64,000 bases of DNA, taken from Acinetobacter sp. WCHA55. Lineage in GTDB: Bacteria; Pseudomonadota; Gammaproteobacteria; Pseudomonadales; Moraxellaceae. Position 1 is the stretch's first letter. Each line of letters opens with the position of its first letter. Positions 13,216-45,938 of this stretch are shown here, one piece after another. Under the pieces are notes generated by a model. The model saw only the letters and a program-made list of their open reading frames with translations. It did no database searches and had not been told where the DNA came from. Made by a program: the position numbers and the translations under genes. Location: positions 2,604,001 through 2,668,000 of the forward strand of contig NZ_CP032286.1 of assembly GCF_002165305.2 (NCBI RefSeq). Direction: 5' to 3'.

Positions 13216-13884
13216 ATGACTTCAATTGCGGAACTCCCTCTTTCTATTCAAATTAGTAAAAAATTAGAGGACGATATTATTTATGGCTTTTTCCTGCCTG
13301 GGACTAAGCTAGATGAACAAGAACTTTGCGAACGCTATGGTGCTTCACGTACCCCAATTCGTGAGGCATTAAAACTATTGGCTGCTGAAGGATTGGTTGA
13401 AATTCGCCCACGTCGTGGCGCAATTATTCCAGCCATTAATTCACTTACTCTATGTGAAATGTTTGAGGTGATGGCTGAGTTAGAAGCCATGTGTGGACGT
13501 TTAGCCGCACGGCGCATTCAACCTGAAGAAAAGCAAGAATTACAGCGCTTACATCAGTTATGTCAGGATTATTTAAATCAGAACGACTCAGAAAATTATT
13601 ATGAGGCCAACCGTCTATTTCACTTTGCCATTTATCAGGCCAGTCATAATGCTTTTTTAATTGAGCAAGCCTGTACTCTGCATAAACGTTTGCATCCCTA
13701 TCGTCGTTTGCAACTCCGTGTGAATAACCGTATGAACAATTCATTCTCTGAACATAATGAAATTCTGGAAGCAATTTTTGCGGGGAATGAACAGCAAGCC
13801 GAAGCTCTACTGAAAGCCCATGTTGTAATTCAAGGACAGAAATTTACCGACTTTATTTCAACGTTAGAACATTTAAATGCTTAA
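13216..13884 (+). CDS. mdcY: GntR-family repressor of the malonate operon
   Basis: Transcription regulator of 222 residues. Residues 10-75 form a GntR winged helix (DELCERYGASRTPIREAL-type recognition helix; here DEQELCERYGASRTPIREAL), and residues 85-215 form an all-helical FCD ligand domain with the metal-binding type residues (D/H spaced as EANRLFHFAIYQASHN). MdcY represses mdcLMACDEGBH until malonate is present. Its divergent position and the palindromes upstream support this role. The FCD ligand is likely malonate or malonyl-CoA, which is inference from the operon. Confidence 0.88.
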   Translation: MTSIAELPLSIQISKKLEDDIIYGFFLPGTKLDEQELCERYGASRTPIREALKLLAAEGLVEIRPRRGAIIPAINSLTLCEMFEVMAELEAMCGRLAARRIQPEEKQELQRLHQLCQDYLNQNDSENYYEANRLFHFAIYQASHNAFLIEQACTLHKRLHPYRRLQLRVNNRMNNSFSEHNEILEAIFAGNEQQAEALLKAHVVIQGQKFTDFISTLEHLNA

Positions 13885-13967
13885 CTAGAAACTGAACTTG
13901 TTTGAGCTGAGTTGTTCATGTTTTTGATGTTTAGCTTCATGTTTAAGACCATTCATGTAGCGAAGAT

Positions 13968-14007
13968 AAATACCAAGAAATACGTATCGATTTCTTGGTA
14001 TTTTTTT
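13968..14007 (+). terminator. Intrinsic terminator after mdcY
   Basis: A long hairpin AAATACCAAGAAAT (13968-13981) and ATTTCTTGGTATTT (13990-14003), 8-base loop, followed by a run of T. It ends the mdcY transcript. The rest of the 305-base gap to 14190 shows no gene. Confidence 0.85.
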
Positions 14008-14189
14008 CTTGATGAGCACCTTGATTAGAGCGATATCATGTGGCTTTTCTACCTATAAACCCACCGGATTGAAATCAAGAAGTGACGTGAACGATGCACA
14101 ACTGCTCTACGTATGATGATGCGATATAGAAATCAGCACTCACATGACATATGATGTCTTATATCTAGTTTTATGTTGAATACTTTCTT

Positions 14190-15146
14190 ATGTCGACTCT
14201 CAAAGTAACCTGTGCTGAAAAATATGTTTTGATTGATCAGCAGTTTCAATTTGACTTTCCAGTGCAATACACTGAGTTCCAACAGCTTGATCAAGCACAG
14301 TTTGAAACACAAGTTCACAACCAAGATATCATTATTATTAGTGACTTAAATGTGAATGAACAAGTTCTCGCTAATAATCCAAGCCTTAAACTGTTAGCCC
14401 TCTGCTCTACGGGGTTTAACCACGTGAACTTGACGTTGCTTAAACAACATGGTGTACAAGTCTGCAATATCCGAGGTTATGCAGGTGATGCTGTTGCAGA
14501 ACATGCATTTACTCTAATGATTAACCTCATTAAAAACTTTAACCAACAAGTTGATGGCGTGAAACAAGGGCTTTGGTCAACTGGTAACAGTTCATTTTAT
14601 CTTGCAGCCCCAATGGGTGAACTTAAAAACAAGACCCTAACCATCATGGGTAAAGGTGAAATTGGCTTATCGCTAGCGCAAAAAGCTGAAGCATTTGGCA
14701 TGAAGGTAATTTACAGTGAACGTAAAAATGCTGAGCAATGCCGTGATGGCTATGTGCCATTTGAGCAAGCTGTACAACAGGCTGATATTTTGTCTTTACA
14801 TTGCGAACTCAATACAGACACTCAACATATGATTGATGCTTCTGTATTCAAGCTTATGAAAGATAAGAGTATTCTGATTAATGTTGGACGTGGAGGCTTA
14901 GTGCATGATGCCGACTTGATTGCAGCCATTGAAAGCAAAAAAATTGCGGGCTTTGGTGCGGATGTTTTAGATCAAGAACCTCCTGCCGAGAATCACTCTT
15001 TACTGCAATTGCAACATCAACATGACAATGTGCTAATTACTGGTCATATTGCTTGGGGGACAGACGAAGCACAGCAACGTTTATTTGACATTTTACAAAG
15101 TAATATCAATCAAAATATGCAAGGTATAGAGCAAAATCTTGTTTAA
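14190..15146 (+). CDS. D-2-hydroxyacid dehydrogenase (hydroxypyruvate/glyoxylate reductase-like)
   Basis: NAD(P)-dependent reductase of 318 residues interconverting a 2-ketoacid and its D-2-hydroxyacid. The catalytic domain (residues 1-95 and 280-318) surrounds a Rossmann domain whose dinucleotide motif is TIMGKGEIGLSLAQKAEAFG (GxGxxG with a Lys in the second position). Catalytic residues appear in INVGRGGLVHDADL (Arg), VLDQEPP (Glu) and TGHIAWG (His). The substrate cannot be told from sequence; glycerate dehydrogenase (HprA)-like enzymes are closest in pattern. It stands alone between two terminators. No strong ribosome-binding site precedes the ATG at 14190. Confidence 0.8.
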   Translation: MSTLKVTCAEKYVLIDQQFQFDFPVQYTEFQQLDQAQFETQVHNQDIIIISDLNVNEQVLANNPSLKLLALCSTGFNHVNLTLLKQHGVQVCNIRGYAGDAVAEHAFTLMINLIKNFNQQVDGVKQGLWSTGNSSFYLAAPMGELKNKTLTIMGKGEIGLSLAQKAEAFGMKVIYSERKNAEQCRDGYVPFEQAVQQADILSLHCELNTDTQHMIDASVFKLMKDKSILINVGRGGLVHDADLIAAIESKKIAGFGADVLDQEPPAENHSLLQLQHQHDNVLITGHIAWGTDEAQQRLFDILQSNINQNMQGIEQNLV

Positions 15147-32761: not shown

Positions 32762-33800
32762 GGCTTTGTTGCACAAAGCTGTTCTTAAGGGCTTCTTCAG
32801 CAATATAATTTCCAAATGAAGAAGCCTACACACAAAATCTACCGCACAACCAATTGGCCCGCATATAACCGAGCTCTCATTAATCGTGGGAATATTGCCA
32901 TTTGGTTCGATCCAAAAACACAATGGTATGCAGAACCTCAAGGCAAACAAGGTCGAAGTCAAACCTACTCCGACATAGCGATTCAATGCTGTTTGATGAT
33001 CAAATCTCTATTTAGACTTACTTTACGCATGGTCACTGGCTTTGTTCAAAGCTTAATTAAACTTTGTGGATTAGATTGGACAGCACCAGATTACAGTACG
33101 CTTTGTAGAAGACAAAAGCATATTGATATTGCAATTAGTTATCAGAAAAACAGTGATGGGCTTCATCTACTCGTAGACTCTACTGGCTTAAAGTTTTTGG
33201 GCGAAGGTGAATGGAAACGTAAAAAGCATCAGTCTGAATATCGTCGCCAATGGTGTAAACTTCATATTGGTATAGATGCTAGAACCCTGCAAATACGAGC
33301 CGTTCAGCTCACGACCAACAATGTAAGTGATTCACAGGTGCTTGGGGATTTACTCAATCAGATTCCATTGGATGAGCAGATTGACTCCGTATATACCGAT
33401 GGCGCTTATGACACCAAGCAATGCCGACAGGTCATTGCAGATCGGCAAGCACATGCAGTGATTCCACCTAGAAAAAATGCCAAGCCTTGGAAAGATAAAA
33501 AAGTTCATTCGCTAGAGCGAAATGAATTACTTCGCACTGTTAAACGTTTAGGCAGGACACTATGGAAAAAATGGTCGGGCTACCATCAGCGAAGTCTGGT
33601 TGAAACCAAGATGCACTGCATCAAATTATTAGGCGATAAACTCAGTGCTAGGAACTTTCAAAGCCAAGTCAACGAGGTACATGCTCGTATAGCCATTTTA
33701 AATAGATTTACAGAATTAGGCCGACCTCATACCCAAGTTGTCACTTAAATTTGAGCAACTTAGGAAAGCTCTATCTTTAAGGGCTTTATGCAACAAAGCC
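32762..33800 (+). mobile_element. IS5-family insertion sequence (IS903 group), copy 1
   Basis: Complete 1039-base element. The left end GGCTTTGTTGCACAAAGC and the right end (reading inward GGCTTTGTTGCATAAAGC) are imperfect terminal inverted repeats. It is flanked by a perfect 9-base direct repeat CTTTCAAAC at 32753-32761 and 33801-33809, the target duplication length of the IS903 group. Size and ends resemble the Acinetobacter element IS17, an identification I could not check. The matched duplication shows that it arrived as a simple insertion. Confidence 0.95.
32816..33748 (+). CDS. IS5-family transposase (copy 1)
   Basis: DDE transposase of 310 residues. The catalytic acids fit LLVDSTGLKFLG (first Asp near residue 122), SVYTDGAYDTKQCR (second Asp near 194) and RSLVETKMHCIKLLG (Glu near 261). 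It fills the element and is identical at protein level to the copy at 44117-45049. It is intact and may still be active. Confidence 0.95.
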   Translation: MKKPTHKIYRTTNWPAYNRALINRGNIAIWFDPKTQWYAEPQGKQGRSQTYSDIAIQCCLMIKSLFRLTLRMVTGFVQSLIKLCGLDWTAPDYSTLCRRQKHIDIAISYQKNSDGLHLLVDSTGLKFLGEGEWKRKKHQSEYRRQWCKLHIGIDARTLQIRAVQLTTNNVSDSQVLGDLLNQIPLDEQIDSVYTDGAYDTKQCRQVIADRQAHAVIPPRKNAKPWKDKKVHSLERNELLRTVKRLGRTLWKKWSGYHQRSLVETKMHCIKLLGDKLSARNFQSQVNEVHARIAILNRFTELGRPHTQVVT

Positions 33801-33922: not shown

Positions 33923-34684
33923 ATGCAAAAGAATTGGCTCGTAAGAACAAATCAAACCATCACCTTCATTCCTATGCTGATTGCCCTTTTTATAGGAATC
34001 GTTGGATATGAATGGTTACGTACTGAGCTTGTAGGGAGCTGGGTACTTTTGATTGCTTTTATTTTACTGGGTCGATTTTTGAATTTAATTCAAGCAATGA
34101 TTCTGAGTGTTTTTATTTTTATAGTCTTCTTTATTTATATTTTGTTTGATATTCAAGTCAATACCATCGACACCAATACAAAGTTATTGCAGCTTTTCGT
34201 TTTCCCTGTAGCACCTATGCTATTGAGTATTTATTATGAAATGATGTCGACCAATCGACAGACCAATAACTTACTTGATACGTACCGTAAGAATTTAACA
34301 TATAGAACCCTTCCTATTAGTACCTATCAATATACGCATGATCAAGTGCAGCTCATGTTAAATCAAGGTCTTATTCCTCATTACAATGAAATTCATATAG
34401 AAATTACAAACCATAATCTATTAAGAGATATGTTGCAGGTTGATGAGCTGAAACACCTACAGCAGAAAATTATCAATGTGTTAGAGAGTAATTTTGAAGC
34501 TCCACATTTTTCTTTTACAGATACGCGACTTTCAATTCTCCATGTCATTATGATTGCCGATCAAAACTCTGTGACATCTAAGCAGTTGATTGAAAGAATC
34601 AAGCAGATTGAACTCATCAAAACGAAAATCACCCATCATTCACATCTCAAAGGGCAAACTTCTTTTTCAGAGGAAAGCCTATGA
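33923..34684 (+). CDS. Multi-helix membrane protein, possible degenerate GGDEF (PelD-like) domain
   Basis: Not recognised with certainty. The 253-residue protein has four to five membrane helices in residues 13-120, then a cytoplasmic part of about 130 residues. That part shows a pattern loosely like a degenerate GGDEF domain: VDELKHLQQKIINVLE, then TDTRLSILHVIMIAD in the position of the GGDEF loop, then LIERIKQIELIKTK like the final helix. There is no GGDEF signature and no RxxD c-di-GMP site. PelD in the Pel system has a comparable layout, but this is only an analogy. First gene of a five-gene unit; its stop overlaps the next start by four bases (ATGA). Confidence 0.55.
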   Translation: MQKNWLVRTNQTITFIPMLIALFIGIVGYEWLRTELVGSWVLLIAFILLGRFLNLIQAMILSVFIFIVFFIYILFDIQVNTIDTNTKLLQLFVFPVAPMLLSIYYEMMSTNRQTNNLLDTYRKNLTYRTLPISTYQYTHDQVQLMLNQGLIPHYNEIHIEITNHNLLRDMLQVDELKHLQQKIINVLESNFEAPHFSFTDTRLSILHVIMIADQNSVTSKQLIERIKQIELIKTKITHHSHLKGQTSFSEESL

Positions 34685-35574
34685 GTAGTATGATTTTCGC
34701 CTGCGGATTATTGATTTCAGTCCATACGCAGCCCGATCTAATCCTTTCTTCTTTTTATCAGAAGTATTACCACTGCCGTTTGGAAAAGGTCTCTTCAACC
34801 CAGCAAAAGGCAATCTCTGATTATCATCAAATTCCTGAACATTTTTCAGCCACTAAAAAATTATGGCCTGTTTTTACAGTTGATCAGCTTAATTCTGAAA
34901 GCTATAAAAACATGAAGAGCCAAGGAATTAAATCTGGTTTACTTATTCCTCAAGATTTTATGAGACCCGCCATTTATTTTCAGGTCAAACAGGAGGTTTC
35001 TGAAGGAGCAATCCCTCTACTCGATCTGAGTAATATTGAACCGCAGCACTTCCCAGGTCTAGCAACATTGGCAACCAGTGCAGGCTTGCGTCCTATGGGG
35101 GCCTATATTCAAGAAGGCTGGAACCCGAACTTGAAAGTCTTACCGCGTGGTTTATATGTTGTTCAGGCGAATCCTGATCAACTCCCCTTACCTGCACGGC
35201 GTATCCAATCAGGTCAACAGCTATTTTATACCGCTTACGCTCACTCACCTTTTAATGGGACTGGAATTGTTTTAAACCCGCAGCTCAGCCTTGCAGAAAG
35301 TGATATTGCATATCCTGACTTGGGAATTTCTTGGGATTTTTTAAATTTGCATTTTAGTAGCCAGCAAGACCAGATCCACACCAGTCGAATTGGATATGTA
35401 TTACTTTCAGCTGGTTTAGTGATTTTACCTTTTCATCTTGTGCTCTCTACTCATTACCCAGGATTACTAAGTTTTTGGGGTACGTCTACCTCTTGGGTAT
35501 CTGTATTTATAATCATTATTTTAATGCTCATTCTTCTCTCTACTATGCTATGGAGGAGGTTTAAAAAATCATGA
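34681..35574 (+). CDS. Unknown protein with C-terminal membrane helices, exopolysaccharide operon
   Basis: I do not recognise this 297-residue protein. It has a weak hydrophobic N terminus (MIFACGLLISV), a soluble middle of about 220 residues with alternating short strands and helices, and two hydrophobic segments near residues 237-255 and 268-290, followed by a basic tail (WRRFKKS). It is joined by four-base ATGA overlaps to the genes on both sides, which implies a product needed in step with the synthase. It could be an inner-membrane partner of the synthase. Confidence 0.6.
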   Translation: MSSMIFACGLLISVHTQPDLILSSFYQKYYHCRLEKVSSTQQKAISDYHQIPEHFSATKKLWPVFTVDQLNSESYKNMKSQGIKSGLLIPQDFMRPAIYFQVKQEVSEGAIPLLDLSNIEPQHFPGLATLATSAGLRPMGAYIQEGWNPNLKVLPRGLYVVQANPDQLPLPARRIQSGQQLFYTAYAHSPFNGTGIVLNPQLSLAESDIAYPDLGISWDFLNLHFSSQQDQIHTSRIGYVLLSAGLVILPFHLVLSTHYPGLLSFWGTSTSWVSVFIIIILMLILLSTMLWRRFKKS

Positions 35575-36824
35575 GCACTATCGATATTCTTTTTATTATC
35601 GGATTTATTGGGATCTGGATTCCTCAAGCTTTTTGGGCTTGGCTTAGCTTTTCTGCTTGGCGCTACTCTATTCGAGCCAGCAAAGAACTGGCCAACCTCC
35701 CAGTACCTCCGCGCTGGCCTATGCTGAGCGTTTTGATTCCTGCTTATAATGAGGGACTGGTTATTGAGGATACCTTACGTGCATTAGCCACACAGGACTA
35801 TCCTGCTGAAAGCTATGAGGTACTCCTAATTAATGATGCATCCAAAGATGATACACAGGAAATTGCGGATCGCATGGCTGCCGAGTTTCCTGTCATTCGT
35901 GTAGTTAATGTCCCTAAAGGCCAAGGTGGTAAGGGAAAATCTAGAACATTAAATAACGGCCTCAAGTATGCTCAAGGCGAGCTGATTGCTGTTTATGATG
36001 CAGATAGTACACCTGAGCCCGATTGTGTGCGTTTGATTGCGCAAACCCTATTGGCAGATGCCAGCCTTGTCGCTGTGAATGGAAAAGTACGCACTCGTAA
36101 CTGGAAAGACAGTCCTCTCAGCACCTTTATTGCAATTGAATTTATTTATTTTCAATGGATTTTTCAGGGCGGACGCTGGTTACGCTTCCGACTATCTACT
36201 TTAATGGGTACCAATTATGTCATCTGGCGAGACGCATTGGATATTTTAGGTGGCTTTGATGAGAAATCTCTAGTTGATGATACAGAAATGAGTTACCGAA
36301 TTTTTTTAGGTCACAAGCGAATTAAATGGGTACCTTATGCCGTGGGTTGGCAGCAAGATCCTGGGGACCTAGGTATTTTCATCAAACAACGCTCTAGATG
36401 GACTCAAGGTAACTTCTATGTAACACGGAAATATTTAAGAACAGCTATTCGACACCCTTTTCCAATTGGGATGGAAATCGGGAATAATATTATGTGCTAC
36501 ATCATGTTTGTTCCAGCCCTGTTCTTAAGTCACTTAACCATGATCATTGGCTTATTGGGTATTGATGGTACTACCATTCCAGGCCCATTCACCCTACTGT
36601 TCATTCTGGCCTTTATCCTTTATTTAATACAAATTTGGTTCACACTTAGCCTTGAAAAAGAAGTACCGAAAAGATTTTATTTCTATGCTTTTATTGCCTA
36701 TTTCACTTATTCACAAGTCTTTCTGCTGATTGTTTTCAAAGCCGCTTGGGATATGCTGAAAGGAAAAATTAAAGGTGAAGGAATTACTTGGTACAAGACA
36801 GAACGGAAGAAGGAAAAAAAATGA
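35571..36824 (+). CDS. Processive family 2 glycosyltransferase (polysaccharide synthase)
   Basis: Membrane synthase of 417 residues that polymerises a sugar nucleotide and probably moves the chain across the inner membrane. One N-terminal helix, then a GT-A domain from residue 45 with VLIPAYNEGLVIEDTL, LINDASKDDT, VYDADSTPEP (DxD), the acceptor region VDDTEMSYRIF (ED-type) and the QRSRW motif (QxxRW) near residue 275; three or four helices follow. The pattern is that of PgaC/BcsA/HasA enzymes. There is no PilZ domain. The UDP-GlcNAc 2-epimerase at 39518 suggests that UDP-ManNAc may be a substrate, which is inference. Confidence 0.88.
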   Translation: MSTIDILFIIGFIGIWIPQAFWAWLSFSAWRYSIRASKELANLPVPPRWPMLSVLIPAYNEGLVIEDTLRALATQDYPAESYEVLLINDASKDDTQEIADRMAAEFPVIRVVNVPKGQGGKGKSRTLNNGLKYAQGELIAVYDADSTPEPDCVRLIAQTLLADASLVAVNGKVRTRNWKDSPLSTFIAIEFIYFQWIFQGGRWLRFRLSTLMGTNYVIWRDALDILGGFDEKSLVDDTEMSYRIFLGHKRIKWVPYAVGWQQDPGDLGIFIKQRSRWTQGNFYVTRKYLRTAIRHPFPIGMEIGNNIMCYIMFVPALFLSHLTMIIGLLGIDGTTIPGPFTLLFILAFILYLIQIWFTLSLEKEVPKRFYFYAFIAYFTYSQVFLLIVFKAAWDMLKGKIKGEGITWYKTERKKEKK

Positions 36825-38644
36825 CCTTGCAGATAAAAACAGCTCCTTTTACATTAATGTCATCACTCCTATTTCTTGCATGTAGCACACATGTCCATGC
36901 AGATACATGGAAGCTAGATGATTTAATCTCACAGAATATTGAGCAAAGTACCCCTTATTTCTTTTATGTAGCCAAAGGGGAAAGCTGGCAAAATGTCCTG
37001 TTCAATAGCCAGTTTAATGTACAGGGTAACAGTACAGTGATTGTGCGCTATGACAATCAGCTCATCCATCAGCAGAACTTAAGTGGTAAAGGTACATTAA
37101 GTTTCAATCTTCAACCCTCCCAAAGTGGCTTCCATCGGCTCGATATTAGTATTTTACAAAAGCCCTCTACTGAAGGACAAAGCACTGAAAATATGTGCTT
37201 AGAATCTAGTAATCTCTATACAGCACTCACCCAGGCAAGTCTGAGCTATCAACCACAACGTGAAACCCTACAGCTCAATCAACTACCAGATGCATTGTTT
37301 AATAGCCAGCTCAACCGCGCAGAACCTATACAGGCATTACTGCGCTTTGATACTACAAATTTCATGGAAGCTAGCATGATTGGCCGACTCACCACGGCTT
37401 GGAACTTTGCTACACCCATACAATGGAAACTGACTGAAAATACAGAAGCCGAACCCGACTTCATTATCAGCATTCAGCGTTCAACCAAATCCCTACAGAA
37501 TGCACAAATTAGTTTGAGTCAGGCAAGCCAAACACCCACTTTAAATATTGAATATGAGACAGAACCACAGTTGCTGATGGCTATCAATGCTCTGCTCAAC
37601 CGCCAATATCTAGAACAGCTCAATACCCCAACAGCATCATTAAATGGCCCCGTTGCAAGACCTACATGGGCCAGTTTACGTAAATTCGAAAGCTTAGCTG
37701 ATTTAGGTATTTCAGATTTTAAGCTCGATAATTCTCCTAAAAATTTTTCAGTAATCTTTCCAGCTGTTTGGGAAGCAACAGATATTTTAAATGGGCAACT
37801 TAGCTTTCGTTCTCAAAGTGGACTATTACAAGGATCTACTTTACAAGTCTGGCTAAATGATAGCTTAGCGGGGAGTACCAGCCTAGCTAAGCTAGATTCA
37901 AGTCCAGTAGAACGTCAGTTTGACTTTATAAGTGCTGACTATCCTTACACCAACAGCTTCAACATGATGGTTAGCAATACCCAGTTAAATAACAATTACT
38001 GCCTACCAAATGCAGGAAATGCCTTATGGATAGATACGAAAAAATCAAAGCTGAATCTCCCGCATCAGATGAAAAAAGGTGTAATCACGCTTTCTAGCAC
38101 GTTTAGCAGTACCCCTGAAATTGCGGTCAATACTCCAGCAGCAACTCCAATCGCTATTAGCTTGGCGCAAGTTGCCAAGAAAATGCTACTGAGTAATGAC
38201 CCCATCGGTTTAAATATCACGCCACTCAGTTTAAATGCACCGAAAGCCATTAATATCCAGCTTGATGCTCAACGTTATCAATCCGAATTGCAAAAATATG
38301 GCCAAACGCTCTATTTACCAACCACAGAAAATGGTGGCCTGATTACAGTCAAAAATGGAAACTTCTGGATCTATAGTGATAATAACTTGGGAGCAGAAAA
38401 TTTTGCACGATTCTGGCCCGAAATTCAGCAGAAAATACCCAACAATACCACGGCATTATTTATTTCTGCACAAGGGCAAATCACTGTTTTGAATCAAAAC
38501 ATAGTTGAAAAAGCCAAACCGCCGATTATTGAGCAGATTTCTTTACAGACTATTGCTATTATCTTAGGTGTTCTGATTGTTTTAATTATCAGCCTACTCA
38601 TCTGGCGCAGAAACCGTAAAGCGCAGAAGTCTAAAGAAGAATAA
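36821..38644 (+). CDS. BcsB-like periplasmic membrane-anchored polysaccharide export protein
   Basis: Protein of 607 residues starting at the ATG at 36821 (MTLQIKTAPFTLMSS), with AAGGA upstream; the start overlaps the synthase stop (ATGA). It has a signal peptide ending near VHA-DTWK, a long periplasmic beta-rich region with jelly-roll-like segments (SGFHRLDISILQ; GSTLQVWLNDSLAG), and one C-terminal helix near residues 568-590 followed by a basic tail. This layout matches BcsB, which guides cellulose out of BcsA. Overall similarity to BcsB is by pattern only. It presumably works next to the synthase. Confidence 0.7.
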   Translation: MTLQIKTAPFTLMSSLLFLACSTHVHADTWKLDDLISQNIEQSTPYFFYVAKGESWQNVLFNSQFNVQGNSTVIVRYDNQLIHQQNLSGKGTLSFNLQPSQSGFHRLDISILQKPSTEGQSTENMCLESSNLYTALTQASLSYQPQRETLQLNQLPDALFNSQLNRAEPIQALLRFDTTNFMEASMIGRLTTAWNFATPIQWKLTENTEAEPDFIISIQRSTKSLQNAQISLSQASQTPTLNIEYETEPQLLMAINALLNRQYLEQLNTPTASLNGPVARPTWASLRKFESLADLGISDFKLDNSPKNFSVIFPAVWEATDILNGQLSFRSQSGLLQGSTLQVWLNDSLAGSTSLAKLDSSPVERQFDFISADYPYTNSFNMMVSNTQLNNNYCLPNAGNALWIDTKKSKLNLPHQMKKGVITLSSTFSSTPEIAVNTPAATPIAISLAQVAKKMLLSNDPIGLNITPLSLNAPKAINIQLDAQRYQSELQKYGQTLYLPTTENGGLITVKNGNFWIYSDNNLGAENFARFWPEIQQKIPNNTTALFISAQGQITVLNQNIVEKAKPPIIEQISLQTIAIILGVLIVLIISLLIWRRNRKAQKSKEE

Positions 38645-38646
38645 AG

Positions 38647-39516
38647 ATGAAAAAATACCTCCTTTTAGGTTTGTGTGTGGTCTTAGCTATTCCAGCTTTA
38701 GCTCTGACTGGCTCATTATTCTTCATGACTCGAGCAGATGCACAATCTATTCCTCCTAAAATTGAAGGTATATTCTGGCAAGTCGATCAAATCAGTCACC
38801 CATCTGGAAACTGGCATCTCTTGGGTATCGACACATTGGTGACTCAATGGAGTATTGTTGATGGACGTTCATTTTTTAAAGAAATTCCCACACAACAATG
38901 GGAGCATCAACCTAAATGGAGCTCAATTGCTGAACAACCTTGGGCAGATAAGGTTATTTTAGGTTTAGCTGGGAATTATCAGGAACCAGTAGCTCGTGAA
39001 CATATAGACCAGCTTTTTTTACAATCCCAGCAAATAATCCATACTAAGCTGCCTGTACAACCTGCTGGTTATTATTTCCCAGTAGAAGCAGATCCAAGCT
39101 GGCATGGGGTTACCAATCTAGCACATCACATTTCTGCGCTTAAACGCCCAGTCTGGATTAGTATTTATAGTGCTGATCGTAAATCACCATTTTTACATTA
39201 TTGGTTAGAAAGCTGGCTACCAGACAATGCTCAGGTTTTCTTTCAAGATGGTGTAGGAGTAGGAACGCGCAGTCCTGAAGAGGCGGCTCTCATTTATAAA
39301 AACCTTAAAAATGAGTTTGGTGAAAACCGCGTAGTAATTATTTTAGAGGCTTTTCGACCTAACCCCGATGGGAGTTTTCGTGCAGCTTATCCTTGGGAAA
39401 TTGCAAAGCAACTGCAAGCTTATGCAGGACAACGAATATATATTTTTGATGGACCTCATTATTTAGATAAAGCCAGTGTATTCTGGCTTTATCTATGGAT
39501 GAAGATCAACTACTAA
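38647..39516 (+). CDS. Secreted glycoside hydrolase-like protein (DUF4434-like)
   Basis: Protein of 289 residues with an N-terminal signal or anchor segment (LLLGLCVVLAIPALALTGSLF). The rest looks like a TIM-barrel hydrolase of the DUF4434 type: IEGIFWQVDQ at the first strand, LLGIDTLVTQW, ILGLAGNYQ, PAGYYFPVEAD, VWISIYSAD, VFFQDGVGVG and VVIILEAF as successive strands. Acidic residues at strand ends (EAD, QDG, EAF) are candidate catalytic groups. Polysaccharide secretion loci often contain a hydrolase that trims the polymer. It starts two bases after the BcsB-like gene and ends one base from the convergent epimerase gene. Confidence 0.65.
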   Translation: MKKYLLLGLCVVLAIPALALTGSLFFMTRADAQSIPPKIEGIFWQVDQISHPSGNWHLLGIDTLVTQWSIVDGRSFFKEIPTQQWEHQPKWSSIAEQPWADKVILGLAGNYQEPVAREHIDQLFLQSQQIIHTKLPVQPAGYYFPVEADPSWHGVTNLAHHISALKRPVWISIYSADRKSPFLHYWLESWLPDNAQVFFQDGVGVGTRSPEEAALIYKNLKNEFGENRVVIILEAFRPNPDGSFRAAYPWEIAKQLQAYAGQRIYIFDGPHYLDKASVFWLYLWMKINY

Positions 39517-39517
39517 T

Positions 39518-40663
39518 TTATTCAGTTACTTTTAAGTCTTGTACTATTTGCTCAAGGATACGTTCTGAAGCGTGCCCATCACCAAAAGGATTTTCTACTT
39601 CTGCATGTTGTTGGTAATAGGCAGAGTCATCCATCAATTGAGAAAATGCTTTGATAATTTTGGCTTTATCTGTACCGACCAGTATCCCACAACCAGCTTC
39701 AACAACTTCAGGCCGTTCAGTTACGTCCCGTAGAATAAGTACAGGCTTCTGATAAGTTGGACTTTCTTCTTGGATGCCGCCCGAATCCGTCATAATAAAA
39801 TGAGCTGCCTGCAATATTGCTAGTAAGTCTGGATAGTCCAAAGGTTTTAATAAATGGACTTGCGGGTGCTTCGCAAACTCTTTGTAGGCAATGTCATAAA
39901 CCTGAGGATTAAGATGCACAGGCCAAGCGAAATGTAGCTCTGGGTAGCGTTGACATAATTCATTAATCACTGCACAGATATTCTGAATCCCCTCACCAAA
40001 GTTCTCTCGCCGATGTGCTGTCAACAAAACCAATTGATGCTGTCCTCTCAAATTCAGCCCTAATCTTTCTAATCTTTGTTGGGACTGCTGTGAAGAAGAC
40101 TCTATCAAGTCACGCGCATCATAAATCGCATCAACGACCGTATTTCCTGTAATAAAAATGTGCTGTTTGGAAATATTCTCTTGGTATAAATTTTCTGCAG
40201 AAAGTTGAGTTGGTGCAAAATGCCAGCGCGCCAAACGTGAAACCAACTGCCGATTCCCTTCTTCTGGAAAAGGATGCATCAAGTCAAAAGAACGCAATCC
40301 CGCTTCAACATGTGCCAAATGAATATTTAGATTAAAAGCCACCAGAGCACCAGCCAATACGGTTGTCGTATCGCCTTGAACCACAATCACATCACATTTC
40401 GGCATTTCACTAAAGACCTGATCGAGCTCGTTCAGCGCCTTACTTAATAAAATATTTAAACTTTTTCCAGGTTGCATAATTTGCAAATGATGATCAATTT
40501 CAATCTGAAAAAACTCAATTGCATCTTGTACCAACTCCAAATGCTGGCCTGTGAATACAACATTTACCTCAAAACGTGAATCTTGCCTAGCTTTTAAAAT
40601 TACAGGAGCCAACTTAATCAGCTCAGGGCGTGTACCAAAAATAAAAGAAAGATAAATCGGCAT
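39518..40663 (-). CDS. wecB: UDP-N-acetylglucosamine 2-epimerase (non-hydrolysing)
   Basis: Interconverts UDP-GlcNAc and UDP-ManNAc. The 381-residue GT-B-fold protein has FGTRPELIKLAPVI at the N terminus, VVQGDTTTVLAGAL, HVEAGLRSFDL near residue 100, VLLTAHRRENFGEG near 215 and DSGGIQEESP near 285, all typical of WecB/MnaA. It is the second gene of a two-gene unit with the outer-membrane protein and runs convergently into the synthase operon with only one base between stop codons. Its presence suggests a ManNAc-based polymer, as in the E. coli NfrAB glycan pathway, which needs WecB. Confidence 0.92.
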   Translation of the reverse strand: MPIYLSFIFGTRPELIKLAPVILKARQDSRFEVNVVFTGQHLELVQDAIEFFQIEIDHHLQIMQPGKSLNILLSKALNELDQVFSEMPKCDVIVVQGDTTTVLAGALVAFNLNIHLAHVEAGLRSFDLMHPFPEEGNRQLVSRLARWHFAPTQLSAENLYQENISKQHIFITGNTVVDAIYDARDLIESSSQQSQQRLERLGLNLRGQHQLVLLTAHRRENFGEGIQNICAVINELCQRYPELHFAWPVHLNPQVYDIAYKEFAKHPQVHLLKPLDYPDLLAILQAAHFIMTDSGGIQEESPTYQKPVLILRDVTERPEVVEAGCGILVGTDKAKIIKAFSQLMDDSAYYQQHAEVENPFGDGHASERILEQIVQDLKVTE

Positions 40664-40665
40664 CG

Positions 40666-41844
40666 TTAAAAGCTCCAGTAATAGGTCAGTTCAACTCGTG
40701 TGTTATCAAAAGTTCTTTTCCCTGACACAGGTGCCCCATTGATATATTTGCCATACATCTGCTCGACACGTAATTTGATAGGAAAATTTTCAGGTTGCCA
40801 TGCAATTCCTGGCCCAAGCTCGGCCAAATTGTTATAAAACTCATTATTAGAGTCATTAATAGTGTGAAATTTTAAATAGGCCTGCACATTACCGAAATGA
40901 TCACGATTCATATTCCAACCTGTGCGTAAGCGAAAATCACCAATTACGTTGTAATCTTCACGGGAATAGCTCGCAGCATTACCATATAGTTCAGCAAAAT
41001 ATTGATTTTGATTCTGCTTTGGTGTGTGCGTGGTTTCCGTATTGTGCCAATACCATTCCTGATAGCCCGCTAGACCAAAGTTAATGCTTTCTCTGAATTT
41101 ATCCCGATTTAAATCAATCAGGTCATAACTTCCCCCTACTTCCAAATATAAATAAATTGGCCATTCCCAAGGACGATAATTCGCTCCAACACCTAAAATC
41201 GCGGCATTCTGATCAATGATTTCAGGACGGGCTCCACCTGTTGAACGTGTATCACGGTTGACATTAGCAAAACCATAAACCTGCCCACGGTTTTCTTCTC
41301 CCCAATAGCGCCCATACCGTAGTTTTAGAGGCAAGATAGCGGTGTCGTAACGACCTTCAAAAGAAGGCGAAAAGTAAATATCTGAGAAACTTGTTTTAGG
41401 TGAACTGCTTTCAGTTCCACTCAAATTCTTTACTGCTTGCTGAGCTTTCTCAACAGTTTCTGGATTTGAAGACTGTTGTAACCTTTTAAATATTTCTAAA
41501 GCTTCTGGATTACGCTGTGCAGCATTTAACAAATAAGCTTTTTGTAGTAATAATTCTTCATCTTCTGGGTTAAGCGCCAAAGCACGATCTATGTAAGTTA
41601 AAGCTTGGATATTATTTTTTTTTCGCAATTCTAAATATGCCCATGTTTTCCAAACTTTCGGATCTTGAGGGGTTTTCATGCTTAATTTTTGTAAAATCTC
41701 ATTCGCTTGTTCTAAGTCATTATTTTCTATTAGATAATATTCACTCCATAAAGCATATACTTCAGGCATAACTTCTACTTGAGCATGTAGAGAGGCACTC
41801 ACAACCAACACACAAGCACTTGAAACTATATGTAAATTCTTCAT
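40666..41844 (-). CDS. TPR and beta-barrel outer-membrane exopolysaccharide protein (NfrA C-terminal-like)
   Basis: Protein of 392 residues with a signal peptide (cleaved near LHA-QVEV). Residues 30-135 carry about three tetratricopeptide repeats (DPKVWKTWAYLELRKKNNIQ; ALTYIDRALALNPEDEELL). Residues 155-392 are a beta-barrel ending in an aromatic residue (ELTYYWSF), with strands such as VYGFANVNRDTRS and WPIYLYLEVGGSYDL. The barrel resembles the C-terminal domain of NfrA, the outer-membrane port of the N4-receptor glycan; PgaA and PelB have the same TPR-plus-barrel plan. It precedes wecB by two bases and is much shorter than NfrA or PgaA, with few TPRs. Confidence 0.75.
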   Translation of the reverse strand: MKNLHIVSSACVLVVSASLHAQVEVMPEVYALWSEYYLIENNDLEQANEILQKLSMKTPQDPKVWKTWAYLELRKKNNIQALTYIDRALALNPEDEELLLQKAYLLNAAQRNPEALEIFKRLQQSSNPETVEKAQQAVKNLSGTESSSPKTSFSDIYFSPSFEGRYDTAILPLKLRYGRYWGEENRGQVYGFANVNRDTRSTGGARPEIIDQNAAILGVGANYRPWEWPIYLYLEVGGSYDLIDLNRDKFRESINFGLAGYQEWYWHNTETTHTPKQNQNQYFAELYGNAASYSREDYNVIGDFRLRTGWNMNRDHFGNVQAYLKFHTINDSNNEFYNNLAELGPGIAWQPENFPIKLRVEQMYGKYINGAPVSGKRTFDNTRVELTYYWSF

Positions 41845-42169
41845 TCTAAATAGTAAATTAGCAGTCTTTAGAGTAATATATCAGCAATTTTTTTTTAAGT
41901 TCGAGATAGTTAATATTGGTTACCAAACTACATATATTCTTTATAAAAAAGAACTTCAAAAATCATAAAATTTCAACTAAACAAACAACCATCATTCACA
42001 TATTATCTTTAAATGATACAAAGAAATTAAAAAATATCTACCATTATTAAATAAAAAATATTTTATTCTATTTTTAAATTATATTAACCCTGTATTACAT
42101 ATAGATTAGAAGTTCAATTATACTTTTATTTACCCATCCTAATGATTAAATTAAAATTAATTTTAAATA
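41845..42169. other. AT-rich intergenic DNA upstream of the outer-membrane protein gene
   Basis: 325 bases of very AT-rich DNA with no gene seen. It should carry the leftward promoter of the NfrA-like gene and wecB. I find no clear repeat or terminator. Confidence 0.4.
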
Positions 42170-43231
42170 GCTTTGTTGCACAAACTTATCATTACAGGTT
42201 TATACAGCAATATAATTCCCAAACGAATAAATCTACACCTAAAATCTACCAGATAACGAATTGGTCTTCTGATATAGCAGTATACTGCGCAAGATTAATA
42301 AATCGAGGAAATATATCGATTTGGTTTGATCCAAAGACTCGATGGTATGCACAATCACAAGGCAAACCAAGTTGAAATCAAATCTACTCCGATACAGCAA
42401 TTCAATGTTGCTTAATGATTAAATCTCTCTTTCGACTCTCTCTAAGGATGGTTACAGGCTTTGTCCAAAGTCTGATTAAACTTTGCGGATTAGACTGAAT
42501 GGCCCCGAATATCAGTGATATTCGTTCTCGATGCTTTGCAGAAGACAAAAGCAGATTGATATTGCGATCAGCTATCAAAAAAGTAGTGATGGGCTTCACC
42601 TATTAGAGGACTCGACTGGTTTGAAGCTTTTTAGGTGAAGGTGAATGGAAACGTAAGAAACGACATCCTGAATATCGTTGGCAATGGCGTAAATACATAT
42701 TGGTATAGATGCTAGAACTCTAGAAATACGAGTTGTTCAGCTCAGAACGAATCATGTGAGTGATTCGCCAGACCCTGTTGATTTACTTGATCAAATCCCG
42801 TTGGATGAACAGATTGATTCAGCTTATACAGACGGGGCTATGACATCAAAACAATGCCGTCAGGTCATTGCATATCTGCAAGCACATGCAGTGATTCCAC
42901 CTAGAAAAAATGCAAAGCCTCGGAAAGACAAGCAAGCGAGATCTATAGAAATGAATTACTAAAAACGGTCAAACGTTTAGGGAGAACGAATTGGAAAAAA
43001 TGGTCTGGCTATCATCGCCGAATTTTGGTCGAAACCAAGATGCATTGCATTAAATTATTGAGCGATAAACTCTGCTCAAGAAACTTTGGGAGCCAAGTCA
43101 ATGAAATTCATACACGTGTAGCAGTCCTCAACAGATTTACGCCATTAGGCCGACCTCACACCTAAGTTATAACTTAAATCTTAGCAACTTAGGAAAACTT
43201 TAACTTTAATGACTTTATGCAACAAAGCCGT
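42170..43231 (+). mobile_element. Decayed IS5-family element (copy 3)
   Basis: Degenerate relative of the two intact elements. It begins GCTTTGTTGCACAAA and ends GCAACAAAGCCGT; the interior follows the intact element closely but with many substitutions and small indels. A probable 9-base duplication TTTTAAATA is at 42161-42169 and 43232-43240, though the DNA there is AT-rich. The divergence shows repeated invasions by this IS group over time. Confidence 0.85.
42220..43165 (+). pseudogene. IS5-family transposase pseudogene
   Basis: Broken transposase reading frame. The first part reads KIYQITNWSSDIAVYCARLINRGN and stops after WYAQSQGKPS near 42375. A middle part from about 42756 reads DLLDQIPLDEQIDSAYTDGAM and then shifts frame; the C-terminal end matches RFTPLGRPHT near 43160. 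In-frame stops and frameshifts make it inactive. The second catalytic Asp survives (YTDGA). Confidence 0.85.
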
Positions 43232-43305
43232 TTTTAAATATTAAATAAGAGATTTTATGTTTAATCTTAGGCTGATGGGAGTATCGAAAAATATTTAGCG
43301 AAAAC

Positions 43306-43368: not shown

Positions 43369-44064
43369 CTATTTAGGAAAAACAAAAGATGCGATTAAAC
43401 GTGCTCCCCACCCTTTAGGGCTTGAGTCAGTATCTTCAATCCAATATCTAGCACTACCACCAACACTGATTATTTGACCATTAAGATTGATCATTTTCGT
43501 TAGCGTTAAATTGACTGGGACAGTAGCATCTTCTGTATTCCAATCGTAGGTTGATTCTGAGTTTAACCCTACTGTTAGACTGCTTGGATAGGTGTAGCTT
43601 AAAAATGGTTGTACATAGGTACTATTGGCATCTTCTACATGACCCTTATTCTCTACGCCCCAGATATGATTGGCTAAAGCCCCAAATGTCCAACCATGCA
43701 TTTGCTTTAATACAACAAATGTTGGACCTGCACCATATTGATCTGCCCCGAGAGATTTCTCGGAAGCAGTTGGGAATAAAAGTACTGGACCGATTCCCCA
43801 AGTTAAACCAGTCGATTGGGAAGGAGAGAAGAATAAACTTTGTGTGATATCTCCGACTCCCCAATCATCATCTCGGTTTGATTCACCATAGATCTGATAA
43901 TTCACGGGTACAATTGTTCTAGAGATTAAGTTCCAATCTTCATTTAATTTAATTGGAATTACGGGTTGGATATTTAGTTGATAACGTTCAGTTTCTTCAT
44001 CTGCACCAATATTTTGATCATAGTTAAATTGGAAAGGTACACTGACTAAGTCAGCCACTGGATT
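43369..44064 (-). pseudogene. Outer-membrane beta-barrel protein, 5' end lost to an insertion sequence
   Basis: The remaining 231 codons start at NPVADLVSVPFQFNYDQN, which is normally just after the signal peptide of a family often annotated as transporter or 'neuromedin U' proteins. Beta strands alternate through the protein and it ends in Phe-Pro-Lys (ASFVFPK). Copy 2 of the insertion sequence abuts the Asn codon. The DNA on the far side of the element does not continue the frame into a convincing signal peptide, so the 5' end seems deleted. The frame continues into the insertion sequence and could give a hybrid protein, but without a signal peptide it could not reach the outer membrane. 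Confidence 0.8.
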
Positions 44065-45103
44065 GGCTTTGTTGCATAAAGCCCTTAAAGATAGAGCTTT
44101 CCTAAGTTGCTCAAATTTAAGTGACAACTTGGGTATGAGGTCGGCCTAATTCTGTAAATCTATTTAAAATGGCTATACGAGCATGTACCTCGTTGACTTG
44201 GCTTTGAAAGTTCCTAGCACTGAGTTTATCGCCTAATAATTTGATGCAGTGCATCTTGGTTTCAACCAGACTTCGCTGATGGTAGCCCGACCATTTTTTC
44301 CATAGTGTCCTGCCTAAACGTTTAACAGTGCGAAGTAATTCATTTCGCTCTAGCGAATGAACTTTTTTATCTTTCCAAGGCTTGGCATTTTTTCTAGGTG
44401 GAATCACTGCATGTGCTTGCCGATCTGCAATGACCTGTCGGCATTGCTTGGTGTCATAAGCGCCATCGGTATATACGGAGTCAATCTGCTCATCCAATGG
44501 AATCTGATTGAGTAAATCCCCAAGCACCTGTGAATCACTTACATTGTTGGTCGTGAGCTGAACGGCTCGTATTTGCAGGGTTCTAGCATCTATACCAATA
44601 TGAAGTTTACACCATTGGCGACGATATTCAGACTGATGCTTTTTACGTTTCCATTCACCTTCGCCCAAAAACTTTAAGCCAGTAGAGTCTACGAGTAGAT
44701 GAAGCCCATCACTGTTTTTCTGATAACTAATTGCAATATCAATATGCTTTTGTCTTCTACAAAGCGTACTGTAATCTGGTGCTGTCCAATCTAATCCACA
44801 AAGTTTAATTAAGCTTTGAACAAAGCCAGTGACCATGCGTAAAGTAAGTCTAAATAGAGATTTGATCATCAAACAGCATTGAATCGCTATGTCGGAGTAG
44901 GTTTGACTTCGACCTTGTTTGCCTTGAGGTTCTGCATACCATTGTGTTTTTGGATCGAACCAAATGGCAATATTCCCACGATTAATGAGAGCTCGGTTAT
45001 ATGCGGGCCAATTGGTTGTGCGGTAGATTTTGTGTGTAGGCTTCTTCATTTGGAAATTATATTGCTGAAGAAGCCCTTAAGAACAGCTTTGTGCAACAAA
45101 GCC
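44065..45103 (-). mobile_element. IS5-family insertion sequence (IS903 group), copy 2, inverted
   Basis: 1039 bases, same length and ends as copy 1 but in the opposite orientation. The 9 bases on each side (CACTGGATT at 44056-44064 and TAACAGCAT at 45104-45112) do not match, so there is no target duplication. This suggests an adjacent deletion or rearrangement after insertion, consistent with loss of the 5' end of the gene next to it. Confidence 0.93.
44117..45049 (-). CDS. IS5-family transposase (copy 2)
   Basis: 310-residue DDE transposase with the same sequence as copy 1, including the catalytic segments LLVDSTGLK, SVYTDGAYD and RSLVETKMH. Intact. The identity of the two copies points to recent transposition or gene conversion, and as inverted repeats 10 kb apart they could support inversion of the exopolysaccharide locus. 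Confidence 0.95.
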   Translation of the reverse strand: MKKPTHKIYRTTNWPAYNRALINRGNIAIWFDPKTQWYAEPQGKQGRSQTYSDIAIQCCLMIKSLFRLTLRMVTGFVQSLIKLCGLDWTAPDYSTLCRRQKHIDIAISYQKNSDGLHLLVDSTGLKFLGEGEWKRKKHQSEYRRQWCKLHIGIDARTLQIRAVQLTTNNVSDSQVLGDLLNQIPLDEQIDSVYTDGAYDTKQCRQVIADRQAHAVIPPRKNAKPWKDKKVHSLERNELLRTVKRLGRTLWKKWSGYHQRSLVETKMHCIKLLGDKLSARNFQSQVNEVHARIAILNRFTELGRPHTQVVT

Positions 45104-45206: not shown

Positions 45207-45938
45207 ATGTTTGAAATTATTGATGATTTAAAAAATAAGTTAGATCAGCATCGCCCCCTATCACCTACAATGGTAAAAAATTTACAAGAAGACCTTATTG
45301 TACGATGGACGTATCATTCCAATGCTATTGAAGGGAATACACTTACTCTATTAGAAACCAAAGTTGTGCTAGAAGGTATAACTGTCGGAGGAAAGGCATT
45401 AAGAGAGCACTTCGAGGCAATTAACCATAGAAATGCCATTTATTACGTTAAGGACATTATTAGAAAAGAAGAACCATTTTCTGAATGGCAAATTCGTAAT
45501 ATCCATCAACTTATTTTAAAAAATATTGATGATGACAATGCAGGGCGATATCGCCAACAAAATGTATTGATTTCTGGTGCTACAACCACCCCTCCTGACT
45601 ATACATTTCTAAATGACAAAATGGCTCAGCTAGTTGATTGGTATAATAGCGAAAGCCATACATTACACCCAATTGAACGTGCAGCCAAAGTACATGCTGA
45701 TTTCGTTGGTATTCATCCCTTTATTGATGGTAATGGCCGTACATCACGTCTACTAATGAACTTAGAACTAATGAAAGCTGGTTATCCACCATGCGTGATT
45801 ACTGTAGAGAATCGTTTGGCTTACTATGAAGCATTGGATAAATGGATGGCTTATGGAAAGACTGAGCCTTTTATTCAATTGGTAGCTGATGCTGTATTGG
45901 ATGGGTTTAAGCCATATCAAATGGTTTTAGGAATTTAG
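45207..45938 (+). CDS. Fic-family protein (AMP-transferase-like)
   Basis: Protein of 243 residues. The active-site motif is intact: HPFIDGNGRTSRLL near residue 170 (HPFx[D/E]GNG[R/K]), which in Fic enzymes transfers AMP or another nucleotide group to a protein side chain. An inhibitory helix motif of the S/TxxxE(G/N) kind is seen near the N terminus (HSNAIEGNTL, residues 35-45), which marks a self-inhibited class II Fic. The flap region precedes the motif. AAGG lies close before the ATG. Target unknown. It sits alone between an insertion sequence and an IS remnant. Confidence 0.88.
   Translation: MFEIIDDLKNKLDQHRPLSPTMVKNLQEDLIVRWTYHSNAIEGNTLTLLETKVVLEGITVGGKALREHFEAINHRNAIYYVKDIIRKEEPFSEWQIRNIHQLILKNIDDDNAGRYRQQNVLISGATTTPPDYTFLNDKMAQLVDWYNSESHTLHPIERAAKVHADFVGIHPFIDGNGRTSRLLMNLELMKAGYPPCVITVENRLAYYEALDKWMAYGKTEPFIQLVADAVLDGFKPYQMVLGI

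Follow-up and report, generated by a model that had tools for sequence, protein, structure and literature searches.

Gene content and layout of the locus

The window (the whole analyzed stretch of 64,000 nucleotides from the 3.97-Mb genome of Acinetobacter sp. WCHA55) contains at 33923-41844 seven open reading frames, all of which were found in the ORF list where an earlier note on this DNA had placed them (Table 1). Five of them lie on the forward strand (33923-39516) and two on the reverse strand (41844-39518); the two groups converge tail to tail at 39516/39518, and a single base separates their stops. Four-base ATGA overlaps, on which that note based its proposal of translational coupling, were read directly in the sequence at the first three junctions (34681, 35571, and 36821). 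For pgrD, the ORF list gives a TTG start at 36788; the ATG at 36821 is preferred, because its overlap with the pgrC stop is of the same kind as at the other junctions. The products of pgrA, pgrB, and pgrD have no family match above the curated score in Pfam or NCBIfam. Promoter-like sites numbered 28 (25.8 expected) and terminator-like sites 14 (6.2 expected), none of the latter between the stops of the two convergent operons. Scanning the window for tRNA genes and Rfam families gave no matches.

Table 1. Coordinates and assignments of the genes and insertion sequences at the locus
Feature	Position	Strand	Description
IS element, left copy	32762..33800	+	DDE transposase at 32816-33748; perfect 9-bp target duplication; 122 bp before pgrA
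pgrA	33923..34684	+	About 4 N-terminal TM helices (by eye, sequence and model); GGDEF-fold domain without GGDEF or RxxD I-site
pgrB	34681..35574	+	CE4-deacetylase-like barrel, metal ligands not conserved; hydrophobic C-terminal helices (by eye); probable pseudoenzyme
pgrC	35571..36824	+	Processive GT2 synthase with QxxRW; no PilZ and no MshEN match
pgrD	36821..38644	+	Signal peptide, periplasmic region, C-terminal TM (by eye); BcsB homologue according to PMC12507263
pgrE	38647..39516	+	DUF4434-type; relative of E. coli YbcH
pgrF	39518..40663	-	WecB, non-hydrolysing UDP-GlcNAc 2-epimerase; TIGR00236, 434 bits
pgrG	40666..41844	-	TPR domain; conserved family; C-terminal part taken as outer-membrane barrel (earlier note and PMC12507263)
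Decayed relative of the same IS	42160..43240	+	After pgrG
IS element, right copy	44065..45103	-	Intact; identical to the left copy, inverted; flanks do not match

Correspondence to the published PGR locus

By the kinds and order of its genes, we assign the locus to the Acinetobacter PGR system (pgrABCDEFG), the match being judged against the published description rather than by alignment to the MC47.2 sequence used there. A report of September 2025 (PLoS Pathogens; PMC12507263) presented PGR as the StAb3 phage receptor locus, occurring in A. baumannii and in further Acinetobacter species. In the available part of that paper, PgrA is described as a diguanylate-cyclase-like fold without GGDEF, PgrC as an NfrB/BcsA/PgaC-like protein, PgrD as a BcsB homologue, PgrE as resembling the PgaB C-terminus by structure, PgrF as WecB, and PgrG as a putative porin; the product is proposed to be a ManNAc-containing polymer. 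In A. baumannii, StAb3 infection requires both pgrD and pgrF: resistance results from pgrD insertions or deletion or from a pgrF SNP, complementation restores sensitivity, and deletion of pgrD abolishes adsorption. Of 994 complete A. baumannii genomes, 958 are reported to carry at least part of the PGR locus, as are other Acinetobacter species (PMC12507263).

The window locus shares with the A. baumannii system the genus, the seven genes in the same letter order, and the WecB, the GGDEF-less cyclase fold, the synthase, and the putative exporter. It differs in belonging to a divergent branch, its PgrD and PgrC being 35-42% and 74-77% identical, respectively, to those of the A. baumannii-like group. 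Thus the locus is a real, conserved, and already described system, and the window copy is a new divergent member of it. The earlier note had proposed a new exopolysaccharide system. The labeling of five of the seven genes as hypothetical in plasmid records and the lack of matches to the BcsB and NfrA_C family models agree with such a reading; nevertheless, the gene names, mutants, and distribution were published in 2025 (PMC12507263, as far as available), with the same seven gene kinds in the same order, which refutes it, barring a polymer of another kind in the divergent clade. We therefore regard an undescribed system as hardly tenable.

Distribution and divergence

PgrD was matched in 54 of the 175 Acinetobacter genomes; leaving out G077, which has a weak match elsewhere and no locus, we retained 53 loci including the window. 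In every one of them (the window and 52 fetched loci), the order is A-B-C-D-E on one strand and (F)-G on the other, so the gene assembly that the earlier note found unfamiliar recurs and is not due to chance. The loci form two deep tree branches, one with the window and four others and one with the remaining 48. Apart from its distance to the large A. baumannii-like group, the window PgrD is 61-75% identical to a small group that includes plasmid copies. Broken genes were observed in four loci: pgrF in G113, pgrC in G014, and pgrD in G166 and G086. All seven genes are present in A. baylyi DSM 14961 (L114), and the environmental species A. venetianus (strain RAG-1, L109) lacks pgrF and carries A-B-C-D-E-G.

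Outside the genus, the PgrD profile found nothing: it matched only the window's own genome in the order sample (390 genomes, among them a few Acinetobacter) and in the class sample (369 genomes), and the 39 loci obtained by its search of genome contigs are all from Acinetobacter. Three records of mobilizable Acinetobacter plasmids carry PGR amid (L003, L129) or adjoining (L004) plasmid-borne biotin-synthesis genes. In L004, a transposase annotated as IS5-family lies between pgrE and wecB (13624-14370).

The synthase and its periplasmic and outer-membrane partners

PgrC (417 aa) was matched by Pfam PF13641 (E 1.5e-29), and its QxxRW motif is kept in all 53 loci. At E <= 1, its only Pfam matches are GT2-type families and a weak chitin-synthase match, with neither PilZ nor MshEN, as the earlier note had read it for GT2, QxxRW, and PilZ. 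PgrC is nearer to PgaC (1e-29) than to NfrB (6e-8), the two E. coli synthases with which it was compared, and therefore the substrate cannot be read from the synthase. The best NCBIfam match, TIGR03937 (PgaC_IcaA), reaches 140 bits, far under the equivalog cut-off of 422.

The earlier designation of PgrD as BcsB-like stands as the assignment made in the available part of PMC12507263 and found no support in our sequence comparisons. BcsB is absent among the Pfam matches at E <= 1 of 15 PgrD members, hhalign with E. coli BcsB gave a probability of 1%, and PDB sequence searches with PgrD, as well as with PgrE, gave nothing. Using the PgrD alignment to look for proteins that might connect PgrD with BcsB, we obtained 35 proteins at E <= 10 among the 7994 best word-sharing candidates scored; none of them has Pfam domains, and the seven with names are from Acinetobacter.

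PgrE had been called a DUF4434-like hydrolase. The relationship to DUF4434 is upheld by the family, whereas the window protein itself is below the Pfam cut-off (E 7e-6, 26.2 bits versus 30) and the hydrolase function is a prediction. DUF4434 was matched at E <= 1 by 12 of 16 PgrE family members, and hhalign of the 16 proteins with E. coli YbcH, the third gene product of the nfr operon, gave a probability of 77% (E 2e-5, 214 columns). With PgaB, hhalign gave no significant alignment, so our sequence comparison did not recover the published structural likeness to the C-terminal part of PgaB. By analogy, PgrE may be auxiliary, since YbcH is reported to be dispensable for N4 infection (PMC8669469, available part).

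For PgrG, Pfam confirmed the TPR protein seen earlier; its likeness to the NfrA C-terminal domain was not reproduced by Pfam or hhalign. NfrA_C was not matched by the window protein at E <= 10 and was not among the best 25 of the 32 families listed for 15 PgrG members; hhalign with NfrA gave a probability of 1.5% (E 0.03, 285 columns). The TPR part of PgrG weakly matches the PgaA model.

PgrA and PgrB as candidate pseudoenzymes

The two operon-first membrane proteins had been noted as having no known role. For the first, this no longer holds in full: PgrA has a cyclase fold without GGDEF, both as published and as found independently here. The GGDEF motif occurs in none of the 53 PgrA proteins despite their GGDEF fold. 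PelD has a degenerate GGDEF domain with an RxxD site for c-di-GMP; among the PgrA proteins, RxxD beyond residue 150 was found in one of 53, which distinguishes them from the Pel type. Control by c-di-GMP via PilZ, MshEN, or an I-site was also considered and rejected, PilZ and MshEN being unmatched in PgrC and the I-site motif being limited to one of the 53 PgrA proteins.

The predicted structure of PgrB gives moderate support to a CE4-deacetylase-like (NodB-like) barrel lacking conserved metal ligands, and hence PgrB is probably a pseudoenzyme. CE4 deacetylases carry an Asp-His-His metal triad. This triad is not kept in PgrB: T-x-D-Q replaces TFDD, with Q in 52 of 53 loci, and no His near strand 3 is conserved among the 53, both positions being placed by strand order and not by residue-level superposition. 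Comparison of PgrB with PgaB by hhalign gave nothing, and the protein search with PgrB gave 18 proteins, the only named one being from Acinetobacter. The name PgrB is absent from the available main text of PMC12507263, and the protein would gain a testable fold by this model.

Linked and unlinked WecB and the probable supply of UDP-ManNAc

The identification of PgrF as a WecB epimerase was borne out by a TIGR00236 score above the cut-off of 210 bits. PgrF retains the catalytic residues K15, D95, E117, E131, and H213 of E. coli WecB. The pgrF gene is missing in 15 of the 53 PGR loci. We searched the 175 Acinetobacter genomes for WecB and counted unlinked homologs only if they were strong (E 6.6e-89 or better). 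A strong unlinked WecB was present in 15/15 pgrF-less genomes, in 7/38 genomes with pgrF, and in 27/122 genomes without PGR (Fisher p = 2.7e-8 for pgrF-less versus pgrF-bearing and 2.5e-9 for pgrF-less versus PGR-less). G113, which has a broken pgrF and a strong unlinked WecB, is counted among the 38; scored as pgrF-less, it gives p = 5.0e-9. Hence, every one of the 53 genomes with PGR encodes a WecB; it is linked to the locus in 38, among them G113 with its broken gene, and unlinked in the other 15. One of the pgrF-less loci, G166, combines its broken pgrD with a 35-aa remnant of pgrF.

Because the species are related, a quick tree of the joined PgrB, PgrC, PgrD, and PgrG was used. Its supported branches force eight changes in pgrF presence or absence, a count to which losses and gains contribute indistinguishably. 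In 200 random pairings of eight independent pairs, unlinked WecB went in the same direction in 7.5 pairs on average and never in the opposite one (sign test, median p = 0.008, range 0.008-0.031).

Against TIGR00236, the six unlinked WecBs examined out of the 15 scored 517-531 bits. The downstream neighbors, in both cases tested, are UDP-ManNAc dehydrogenases, and one of the unlinked loci has Wzc-like and polysaccharide-export genes nearby; by these neighbors, at least some unlinked WecBs are in capsule-type clusters. Part of the co-occurrence could thus follow capsule type, the unlinked WecB belonging to other glycan loci. For NfrB, Junkermeier and Hengge had published the same rule of a linked or unlinked wecB (PMC8669469, available part); for PGR, we found it in print neither by literature searches nor in the available part of PMC12507263.

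That pgrF is repeatedly missing, and only from genomes with another WecB, gives genus-wide support to UDP-ManNAc as the probable PGR precursor, in agreement with the earlier note and with the proposal in the available part of PMC12507263. Alternatively, the polymer could be of GlcNAc type (PNAG-like) or mixed, with PgrF only adjusting sugar pools or adding a minor residue. The nearness of PgrC to PgaC and its best match to the PgaC_IcaA family point this way, whereas the far sub-cut-off score of that match, the encoding of WecB in every PGR genome, and the A. baumannii strain Up280, whose pgrF SNP makes it resistant to StAb3 and which becomes sensitive again on complementation (PMC12507263, available part), argue against it. 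We consider a GlcNAc-type or mixed polymer unlikely.

Proposed reconstruction of the PGR pathway and comparison with known systems

Taken together, we infer with good confidence that PGR makes a ManNAc-containing surface polymer used as a receptor by StAb3-like phages; the chemistry of this polymer, the roles of PgrA, PgrB, PgrD, PgrE, and PgrG, and activity in this strain are parts of the inference. The pathway would include the following steps: (i) PgrF converts UDP-GlcNAc to UDP-ManNAc, (ii) PgrC, with the help of PgrD, polymerizes UDP-ManNAc and passes the chain across the inner membrane, (iii) the chain is guided or trimmed in the periplasm by PgrE, a part that YbcH may play in E. coli, and (iv) PgrG exports it across the outer membrane. 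PgrA, with its dead cyclase fold, and the deacetylase-like PgrB, which lacks metal ligands, would serve in the inner membrane as non-catalytic subunits, gating or holding the synthase and the polymer, and regulation would proceed without the usual c-di-GMP sites (PilZ, MshEN, I-site).

More tentatively, and with somewhat less than even confidence, we suggest that the two predicted pseudoenzymes jointly gate the PgaC-like synthase and that WecBs belonging to other glycan loci, for example capsule clusters, have repeatedly taken over the supply of the precursor. If so, any change of such a glycan locus in a pgrF-less species would at the same time turn off the receptor for the phage. The PGR polymer is the proposed receptor of broad-host-range Acinetobacter phages, and the WecB rule leads one to expect a testable connection of phage sensitivity with other glycan loci.

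The earlier view of a synthase-dependent exopolysaccharide system parallel to E. coli Nfr is supported: PGR appears to work like Nfr with a PgaC-like synthase, and by the features tested it belongs to none of Nfr, Pga, Bcs, and Pel. With E. coli NfrBA-YbcH and WecB, the N4 glycan receptor system (PMC8669469 and PMC8669472, available parts), it shares the UDP-ManNAc supply, a DUF4434/YbcH protein (the window PgrE scoring below the curated Pfam cut-off), a TPR protein, the phage-receptor role, and the wecB rule. It differs from it in the absence of the C-terminal MshEN domain of NfrB from PgrC, in the closeness of PgrC to PgaC, and in the additional PgrA, PgrB, and PgrD. The Achromobacter nfrA/nfrB/wecB cluster, compared by its description in the available part of PMC8669472 and not by alignment, shares a synthase, WecB, and a BcsB-like protein, and differs by its O-acetyltransferase homologs. 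E. coli PgaABCD (PNAG) has the closer of the two synthases compared and a PgaA model weakly matching the PgrG TPR part, whereas none of the seven proteins matches the PgaD family (Pfam, NCBIfam) and PgrE has no hhalign alignment to PgaB. The cellulose (Bcs) system differs in having PilZ on the synthase and a BcsB partner by sequence family, although homology of PgrD to BcsB is reported in PMC12507263 (available part). To the published account, our analysis adds the gene order in 53/53 loci, the WecB rule, the PgrE-YbcH alignment, the absence of GGDEF (0/53), and the CE4-like model of PgrB.

Insertion sequences and surroundings

Two intact IS copies of 1039 nt each flank the locus. The left one may affect expression of pgrA, and its position 122 bp before this gene makes PGR expression in the window strain uncertain. 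The identity and inverted orientation of the two copies, together with the occurrence of related PGR loci on plasmids, would fit a composite transposon carrying the unit as cargo. However, a 9-bp duplication surrounds the left copy by itself, the flanks of the right copy do not match, and no copy of this transposase was found by tblastn upstream of pgrA in two plasmid records. Since only the left IS shows a target duplication, the composite transposon was rejected as very improbable.

A stretch 77% identical to the decayed IS follows pgrG in the plasmid records L003 and L129; a search of five further loci of the close branch (L004, L035-L038) did not detect it. Given this distribution, the decayed IS may be ancestral with subsequent losses, or it may have been inserted twice. 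The ORF at 43369-44127, whose first codons overlap the right IS end, has no Pfam match at E <= 1 and is probably a gene cut by this IS. A Fic/DOC family protein is encoded at 45207-45938, adjoining the right IS.
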